A program made the translations under genes and the position numbers. From an uncultured Opitutia bacterium (GTDB lineage Bacteria; Verrucomicrobiota; Verrucomicrobiia; Opitutales; Opitutaceae): a stretch of 64,000 nucleotides of DNA. The notes under the pieces are model-generated. The model was not told where the DNA came from. It did not search any database and saw only the letters and a program-made list of their open reading frames with translations. Every line of letters begins with the position of its first letter. Position 1 is the stretch's first letter. Positions 25,544-26,877 of this stretch are shown piece by piece. The stretch covers positions 1-64,000 of the forward strand of contig CAIUWA010000014.1 of assembly GCA_903902745.1 (NCBI GenBank), in the 5' to 3' direction.

Positions 25544-25623
25544 CACTGGCGATTAGAACCGTGTTTGGCCGCTGGGCGAGTTCGGAAAACAATCGTGGCA
25601 CGGGTTTGTGCGAAGCGTCGGAA

Positions 25624-25747
25624 TTTTTTGCCACAAAAAGGCACGAAATGACACGATAAGAAACCGGTCGGACGAAGCCCAGGCCGCCCGGATCTCAAAG
25701 GCCTTGCCGTTTTTCGTGTCATTTTGTGCCTTTTCGTGGCCAAAAAA
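25624..25747. repeat. Intergenic imperfect palindrome, ggcacgaaatgacac type
   Basis: Arm 25624-25658 (ttttttgccacaaaaaggca, then cgaaatgacacg) faces arm 25711-25747, whose complement reads ttttttggccacgaaaaggc then acaaaatgacacg. It belongs to the same layout class as 2554, 26799, 38823 and 50067. It lies just left of the predicted noncoding RNA terminator. Confidence 0.75.
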
Positions 25748-25777
25748 TCCGAGGATTGTTGGCGAGCGCTGCCGCCA

Positions 25778-25816
25778 GAAAACAATAAGGCCCCGGAGCC
25801 TTGCGGCTCCGGGGCC
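25778..25816 (-). terminator. Strong terminator of the candidate noncoding RNA
   Basis: On the minus strand ggccccggagcc pairs perfectly with ggctccggggcc (12 bp) across a GCAA tetraloop and is followed by ttattgttttc. No protein gene on the minus strand ends nearby; the next minus-strand gene (the esterase) starts further on, at 25543. The terminator therefore implies a separate transcript. Confidence 0.85.
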
Positions 25817-26664
25817 AAATTTGGGGGTGGGTGTTCGTCACGCACTCTTTCCCGATGGCACACTGTTGGACGCGCTCGCTTTCGCGGGCCGTGTGCTCCC
25901 CGACGCCACTCTCCGCGGCATGCGGATGTTTCGGTCTCATGGCGGGACCGTTCCGACCGTTTCCGGCTGGAATCTTTTGAGTGAGGTCTCTTCGCCCGGT
26001 TCGGACGCCCCCTGCCGGGTGCGGCTCGCCGGACGTGGTGCTGACACGCCTGCAATTTCTAACACTTCGCGTCGGCACCGTTGCCACGGGGACGGCCCCG
26101 GCTTTTGGCCGGACGTTGGCCCCGCGTTACGGGTCTTACCTCTTAACTCGCAGGTTGCATTCGCTTTTGCAGTGGGGTGACGCGTTTTTTCACGCCGCCC
26201 CGATTGAGGAGGTTGACGGACTTTGCCAGGTCCGCTCACTCCCCGCCGCTGCGTTTCCTTTGCGCGCCCCGCTCGTGAGAGCCGGGCCTTTTGGCGGGGT
26301 GGGCCCGCCGGGAAACGCAACTGCGTTCTGGTCTGCACAGTAGCAACCGTAACCCTCTGGGTAACTGTGTCGGTGCGCGGGTCGAAACGGCCCGCGGACC
26401 TGACTCGGCTCATGCGCGGTTTCTGATTCGCGCCTTGCCGCTCAGCTCCTGATTCGTGGATGAACTGACCGGACACGACTCCGGCCAGAGGAGCTGGTGA
26501 TATCTGCCTGCCGTGTTCCGCTTGCGCGGAATCGGAGGGGAGGGTGGCACCAGCTGCCACCAACCTTTCCCCGGTCGCCCGGGATTATCCCAGTCGTGCT
26601 CTCGGCGGGTTTTTCAGGCCGCCGCACTACGACTGTTCTATCAAGGAACGTGATAGACCGTGCG
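25778..26664 (-). ncRNA. Candidate large structured noncoding RNA (about 0.9 kb)
   Basis: This stretch has no protein gene with recognisable domains on either strand. Read on the minus strand it is a chain of hairpins. The best, with plus-strand arm coordinates, are 26637-26643/26651-26657 (7 bp), 26591-26597/26629-26635 (7 bp) enclosing 26603-26608/26619-26624, 26570-26574/26579-26583, 26543-26549/26555-26561 (7 bp), 26516-26521/26526-26531, 26469-26473/26480-26484, 26336-26341/26364-26369, 26174-26177/26198-26201 with an inner stem, 26098-26102/26108-26112 and 25858-25863/25891-25896 enclosing a small hairpin. Five loops are GNRA on the minus strand: GCGA at 26575, GCAA at 26522, GAAA at 25960, GAAA at 25880, GCAA at 25801. 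A promoter-like element precedes it and a strong terminator ends it. RNase P and tmRNA core motifs were looked for and not seen. Function is unknown; the exact 5' end is a guess. Confidence 0.6.
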
Positions 26665-26670
26665 CGCGGA

Positions 26671-26701
26671 ATTAGAAATGTGAAGACAGAGTTCTTCACA
26701 A
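26671..26701 (-). promoter_or_regulatory. Promoter-like element with dyad upstream of the noncoding RNA
   Basis: On the minus strand TTGTGA (26701-26696) and TTCTAAT (26677-26671) are separated by 18 bases, matching -35 and -10 elements moderately well. The spacer holds an 8-bp dyad, tgtgaaga at 26679-26686 and tcttcaca at 26693-26700, separated by 6 bases. That is a plausible operator. Confidence 0.45.
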
Positions 26702-26798
26702 CTTTTTCGCGTCGAAAGCTGTGAGTAACTTGGGAGCAATCTGGCTCACCGGATATTCACTGGGCCGGCAGTCCGGCTATGACTGAATACTCAGCAGG

Positions 26799-26877
26799 TT
26801 TTTTGCCACGGATGGCACAGATGTCACGGATTCTGACCTCTGCTATCTGTGTCCATCGGTGTAATCTGTCGCTAAAT
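26799..26877. repeat. Intergenic imperfect palindrome, gccacggatggcacagat type
   Basis: Arm 26799-26832 begins ttttttgccacggatggcac. The facing arm, about 26845-26877, begins atctgtgtccatcggtgtaa. It shares vocabulary with the copy at 50067-50145. It lies between the noncoding RNA promoter and hrpB. The remaining 26702-26936 shows no gene. Confidence 0.75.

Follow-up and report, generated by a model that had tools for sequence, protein, structure and literature searches.

What is encoded on the minus strand between positions 25778 and 26701 of the window, the whole 64,000-nt stretch of DNA analysed here? The original prediction was a separately transcribed, large structured RNA of a new class, perhaps specific to this lineage, and the checks it proposed included a search with the Rfam covariance models and, second, a test of the stems for covariation in Opitutaceae homologues. 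Using cmscan with Rfam 15, the core of the region was matched to the MISL RNA (RF03079) over the whole length of the model, with a score of 507.5 bits against a gathering threshold of 274.6 (E = 5e-153). When the 174 pairs of the model were transferred to the sequence, 159 fell on standard pairs. It is virtually certain that this region is a MISL RNA gene. The family is already catalogued, so the match removes the novelty, and this gene adds one more member.

Weinberg et al. reportedly described the MISL RNA in 2017, in a survey of 224 candidates. Our literature search, with most subscription papers outside its reach, found no study of the function or regulation of MISL, and none linking a large RNA with a DnaA box and boxA; in excerpts of PMC10925082 MISL serves purely as a chemical-mapping example. 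One tRNA was the only other feature in the window to reach an Rfam gathering score. There was no such match to RNase P, OLE, GOLLD or ROOL, and no tmRNA was found in the window by ARAGORN or at Rfam gathering scores, which agrees with the earlier view that neither RNase P nor tmRNA was the answer. OLE, GOLLD and ROOL are likewise large structured non-coding bacterial RNAs of poorly understood function (PMC12286853, in excerpt). Matches to Guanidine-II, cobalamin, sraL and mir-425 scored under their gathering thresholds and were taken as chance, the one to mir-425 arising from an inverted repeat at 25613-25757.

Homologues from the organism's own family (Opitutaceae, by named relatives) were used to examine coding capacity and the ends of the unit. 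Only 3 of the 38 aligned own-family sequences, its own included, keep open the frame of the longest minus-strand open reading frame inside the region (25937-26563, 208 aa), which rules out a protein gene, in line with the original prediction. Strong folding had also been claimed, and is borne out: 25782-26652 of the minus strand folds at -411.8 kcal/mol, compared with -354.3 +/- 6.6 kcal/mol for 20 dinucleotide shuffles (z = -8.8). Conservation extends some 60 nt beyond the Rfam model on its 5' side: the unit opens with a boxA-like element and a stem that covaries, and the 62 nt directly 5' of the model start align in 38/38 sequences. At the other end the model is followed by CACCCCC and then by the predicted 12-bp terminator hairpin with its T-rich tail. 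The terminator scan gave 4 terminator-like sites in the region against a background of 1.9 per shuffle on average. A terminator is conserved at the MISL end in own-family loci and is present, by eye, at most MISL loci outside the family. From the conserved 62-nt 5' stretch and the covarying terminator the unit spans about 26652 to 25782, ie about 870 nt, close to the 885 nt first proposed, and the transcript would start near 26652.

The five GNRA loops named in advance all lie in hairpins of this sequence, either in the Rfam structure or in the terminator. Within the family the GCGA loop is kept in 38/38 sequences, the GAAA of helix 28 in 37/38, the GAAA of helix 33 in 32/38 and the terminator loop in 27/38; the fifth is in the poorly aligned hairpin of helix 4.

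Features of the MISL locus. Positions are those of the window; pairing and double changes (pairs changed on both sides) were counted on the alignment of 38 own-family sequences.
Feature	Positions	Strand	Evidence
MISL RNA core (Rfam RF03079, model 1-751)	25830..26590	-	covariance-model match, 507.5 bits
5' leader, outside Rfam model, with putative transcript start	26591..26652	-	aligned in 38/38 own-family homologues
boxA-like element GTTCCTTGATAGAACAG (own sequence)	26633..26649	-	motif in 58/64 loci; compared with 16S leaders of three relatives
5' stem, CAGUCG 26630-26635 with CGACUG 26591-26596	26591..26635	-	97.8% of cells paired, 2/6 pairs with double changes
Two mutually exclusive CAGCU pairings	26443..26555	-	both conserved in the alignment
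Pseudoknot PK-D, UCGUG 26474-26478 with CACGA 26454-26458	26454..26478	-	95.0% of cells paired, 3/5 pairs with double changes
Pseudoknot PK-B, 5' strand GGUUGC	26343..26348	-	pairs with 26153-26158
Pseudoknot PK-B, 3' strand GCAACC	26153..26158	-	pairs with 26343-26348
Long-range helix A, 5' strand GCAGUUGCGUUUCC	26311..26324	-	13/13 pairs with double changes, 86.3% of cells paired; inverted repeat I3
Long-range helix A, 3' strand GGAAACGCAGCGGC	26245..26258	-	partner of 26311..26324; covariation in the alignment
Pseudoknot PK-C, 5' strand CUGCAA	26167..26172	-	97.4% of cells paired, 3/5 counted pairs with double changes
Pseudoknot PK-C, 3' strand UUGCAG	26050..26055	-	hairpin-loop bases, partner of 26167..26172
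Intrinsic terminator hairpin, T-rich tail to about 25780	25789..25816	-	12 pairs, 10 with double changes
DnaA-box-like site TTACTCACA, 1 mismatch to TTATNCACA	26720..26728	-	nonamer scan
DnaA-box-like site TTCTTCACA, 1 mismatch, half of inverted repeat 26679-26700	26692..26700	+	nonamer scan

The second proposed check was made on an alignment of the 38 own-family MISL sequences with 62 nt of 5' and 50 nt of 3' flank, and the structure scored was that of Rfam together with the helices added here, 221 pairs in all. Its pairs were formed in 90.9% of cells, compared with 82.2% in shuffles. Both sides had changed in 127 of the 221 pairs, against 71.4 +/- 3.9 in shuffles and 43-53 in slid versions of the structure, and the covariation score was 0.302 against 0.143 and 0.055-0.069, respectively. 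The stems thus covary in the Opitutaceae homologues. Some Rfam helices were weak (helix 4 with 58.4% and helix 27 with 71.8% of cells paired). Because the added helices were chosen from this same alignment, their counts on it are not independent. The Rfam model as printed begins 62 nt downstream of the start of the conserved unit, and it leaves the 5' stem, helix A, PK-B, PK-C, PK-D and the terminator unpaired.

In the own family five pairs of PK-B are formed in 38/38 sequences and the sixth in 37/38. Of the 26 loci compared outside the family, 21 carried the 3' anchor (missing in L030, L099, L102, L105 and L108), and in 14 of those 21 all six pairs form where they were expected; in L028, L095, L096, L100, L101, L109 and L112 they do not all form. 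Replacement 6-mers found there included GAAGAC:GUCUUC, GAAUGC:GCAUUC, AUCGAU:AUCGAU, AAUUGC:GCAAUU and GGAAUG:CAUUCC. The anchored scan could pick among offsets, and the partners were therefore permuted, using 15 hand-listed pairs without L028 and L101. Ten of the 15 were fully complementary, compared with a permutation mean of 1.5, and 0 of 10000 permutations scored as high. The loci outside the family give PK-B independent support.

The strand CAGCU (26492-26496) is shared by two mutually exclusive pairings. Upstream, AGCUGGU (26549-26555) pairs with ACCAGCU (26492-26498), and each of the 7 pairs is formed in 38/38 sequences. The downstream option is the Rfam stem, in which CAGCUCCU (26489-26496) pairs with AGGAGCUG (26443-26450) through 8 pairs, each formed in 36-38 of the 38. 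The shared strand has a single variable base, which is pairable with both partners in 38/38. The palindromic core common to both pairings could account for part of the dual pairing; a switch between them is possible on this pattern of conservation.

MISL was found in 31 of the 387 genomes of a phylum sample (0/14 controls) and in 83 of the 372 genomes of an order sample, 43 of the 83 being own-family. A separate, large, structured minus-strand RNA, as originally predicted, is strongly supported by conservation; its restriction to one lineage fails on these counts, as novelty of class did on the Rfam match. Within the own family, MISL was present in 21 and absent from 16 of the 37 genomes of the phylum sample, so it is not generally required. 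A single copy was found in the source genome (3.29 Mb in 52 contigs), and two copies each in G155 and G330. The second copies (L093 and L016, respectively) keep the leader and the RNA and lack the upstream box array described below and the hrpB and typA neighbours; they may be under different regulation. The two samples together listed 89 loci, of which 64 were compared, 38 own-family and 26 others.

A DNA-pattern scan of named genomes gave at least 118 stretches. Among the matches listed, many titles were Opitutaceae, Opitutales, Limisphaerales or subdivision 3, and some Actinomycetota or Proteobacteria. Rfam, applied to 15 of the stretches, found MISL in 8, all with Verrucomicrobiota titles (one under Akkermansia; two truncated by the end of a contig or locus), and no MISL in the other 7, none of which was Verrucomicrobiota-titled. 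The titles of Rfam-confirmed records include Limisphaerales, Pedosphaera, Opitutus and Lacunisphaera. Occurrence in viruses was rejected, as four viral contigs fitted the DNA pattern and Rfam found MISL in 0/4.

A promoter-like element had been predicted upstream of the RNA. A sigma-70 consensus scan of the window found no promoter; outside the family, hexamers resembling those of sigma-70 can be picked out by eye at some loci (eg L023, L105 and L107). At the place of the predicted element lies an inverted repeat at 26679-26700 with two DnaA-box-like half sites, of one and two mismatches. The window has just two sites at one mismatch to TTATNCACA and none that is exact. In the 300 bp upstream of 63 loci there were 180 sites with no more than one mismatch, 41 of them exact, compared with chance expectations of 12.65 from shuffles and 4.48 from flank density, both for 64 loci and both overstated since they counted one mis-cut locus (L100) that was left out of the 63. 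At least one box was present in 59/63 loci and at least two in 57/63, and the commonest spacing was 11 bp (26 times). The loci without a box were the two second copies, L016 and L093, together with L099 and L102, which also lack the boxA-like motif. The nonamers TTATTCACA and TTATCCACC are among the Bifidobacterium DnaA-box types listed in a supplementary legend of PMC2430713, and box pairs spaced by 11 bp occur at dnaA itself in G023 and G210. DnaA is the best candidate for the protein that these boxes serve.

An 11-bp-phased pair of the TTATTCACA type was also observed at the start of a PIN-PhoH gene in five own-family genomes (L114, L115, L121, L122 and L123; assigned by Pfam in L114 and, in the other four, by eye from the shared start of the protein), and mraZ has a nearby box pair in one genome. 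These cases, which come from 15 picked stretches, others of which lack an evident replication link, may weakly support DnaA ownership. The dnaN gene was rejected as a further example, its nearby pairs having three mismatches and lying within the gene and some 2.2 kb before it.

At the 5' end of the unit, a boxA-like motif was found no more than 160 nt upstream in 58/64 MISL loci, compared with 1/761 control windows; the box array and this motif co-occur with the RNA. Among the misses, L010, L021 and L109 are one base off by eye, the motif was not seen in L099 and L102, and L100 lies at a contig end. In three further loci, from Limisphaerales, subdivision 3 and Pedosphaera, the leader reads GTTCATTGAAAGAA, and GTTCTTTGA is replaced by GTTCATTGA in 3/3. 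One published boxA is GTTCTTTAAAA, and boxA is stated to precede long non-coding RNAs (PMC7862264, in excerpt). The comparison with 16S leaders covered three relatives in which these were readable, the sequence before 5S being masked in five genomes, four of them own-family. The likeness of the MISL leader is clear in G158, where the 12-mer GTTCTTTGAAAG is common to both leaders of the same genome, fair in G319, and loose or weak in G023. The element is likely to be a boxA.

As in rrn operon leaders with boxA (PMC10250234 and PMC4807359, as excerpted), the element would sit close to the 5' end of a long transcript that is not translated. MISL, however, is not ribosomal RNA, and its element lies at the putative start itself. 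In rrn, boxB precedes boxA (PMC10250234, in excerpt), and in G319 a hairpin is seen by eye upstream of the element in both leaders. There the rrn hairpin is followed further on by GATCTTTCACAG, whereas that of MISL stands directly before GATCTTTGACAG, so the distance from hairpin to element is much shorter in MISL. CRISPR arrays with boxA are also non-ribosomal untranslated transcripts carrying the element (PMC7862264, in excerpt), but MISL is, by alignment, a single structured unit and no array.

The explanation we favour, with a probability of about one half, is that MISL is a free-standing structural RNA with rrn-style antitermination under DnaA-type control. A promoter under the DnaA-box-like array, bound by DnaA, would start transcription near 26652, and the first bases of the transcript would form boxA, loading the NusB/S10 complex that serves in the antitermination of ribosomal RNA. 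Antitermination would allow the long, untranslated and highly structured transcript to be finished and would help it to fold. The transcript, of about 870 nt, would end at its own terminator and would not be the leader of a neighbouring gene. Its product would fold to a compact body held by the pseudoknots and the long-range helix, and may serve the cell as a stable structural RNA that works by itself, in oligomers or together with a protein partner. The amount of MISL would be tied to DnaA activity, and thus to replication or growth state.

A possible but doubtful alternative is an ordinary MISL RNA, in which the upstream repeats serve another regulator and the 5' element is merely a small stabilising hairpin. 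Another regulator would suit the finding that the commonest own-family site is TTATTCACC and not TTATTCACA, and that some other phased pairs of the same box sit at unrelated genes, without an evident replication link; against this, exact TTATNCACA nonamers lie near dnaA in 9/12 genomes (absent in L037, which is cut at the contig start, L040 and L048). The boxA-like element can indeed also fold as a small hairpin, GTTC..GAAC being pairable in many loci, yet in L026, L027, L101 and L104 the hairpin is broken and CTTTGANAGAA is kept, and the 12-mer common to the MISL leader and a 16S leader also argues against a purely stabilising role.

A replication-coupled structural RNA, in which a DnaA-governed promoter and rRNA antitermination would be combined with a CAGCU strand exchange toggling two states, or monomer and oligomer, seems to us unlikely. 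Still less can be said for the DNA being mainly a DnaA-titrating site and the RNA a passenger or transcription-driven modulator. The comparison case for such a site is datA, and a box array at least about 155 kb from dnaA, as in the single-contig genomes compared, would be in keeping with it; that same distance led us to drop a placement of MISL at the replication origin. Titration is made very unlikely by RNA covariation over hundreds of bases, and by the second copies L016 and L093, which keep the RNA without the boxes.

In the flanks examined, hrpB is divergent and upstream in 28/38 own-family loci and typA is downstream in 19/38, sometimes after an esterase gene. The neighbours were called by NCBIfam as HrpB (603 bits, cut-off 546) and TypA (812 bits, cut-off 757); the esterase passes the Pfam BD-FAE and alpha/beta-hydrolase cut-offs and no NCBIfam cut-off. 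This arrangement might suggest that MISL acts in cis, as leader or riboswitch, on the esterase or typA gene downstream, a reading that is largely refuted, and highly improbable, given the terminator at the MISL end and the absence of hrpB and typA from the examined flanks of all 26 loci outside the family, where the boxes and leader mostly remain. The neighbours outside the family offer no functional hint. Of the 16 own-family genomes without MISL, 12 were examined and hrpB is kept in 12/12; upstream of it neither a MISL remnant (11 genomes scanned) nor a box array nor a boxA-like motif was found, with a lone box in 1/12, so the array and the motif belong to MISL and not to hrpB. A genuinely new RNA class, for which the size, the GNRA loops, the upstream elements and the terminator could be cited, is practically excluded by a full-length RF03079 match so far above the cut-off.

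Protein partners were sought in 26 own-family genomes, 12 without MISL and 14 with it. For Ro60, the TROVE domain was found in 1/26, and that genome lacks MISL. Hfq was found by Pfam in 0/26, and in 5/14 controls; its absence from all 26 bears on the sRNA biology of the lineage.

Two repeats flank the locus. Just past the MISL terminator, at 25613-25757, there is an imperfect 47-bp inverted repeat, 85% complementary and with its arms 51 nt apart. Its half site AAAGGCACGAAATGACACG occurs 24 times in the genome at no more than 2 mismatches (0 reversed-control matches), and this copy number suggests a dispersed element of the REP or MITE kind. A stretch containing TTTTTTGCCACGGATGGCACAGATGTCACGG at 26799-26875, beside the MISL promoter region, resembles by eye a second dispersed repeat.

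The added helices and pseudoknots provide a better model of MISL for searches, for probing and for the design of cryo-EM constructs, which are best begun some 60 nt ahead of the first base of the Rfam model. MISL is one of several large bacterial RNAs without an assigned job. If the favoured explanation is true, the DnaA-box-like sites and the boxA-like start would for the first time place it within cell physiology, in replication or growth control and in rrn-style transcription.
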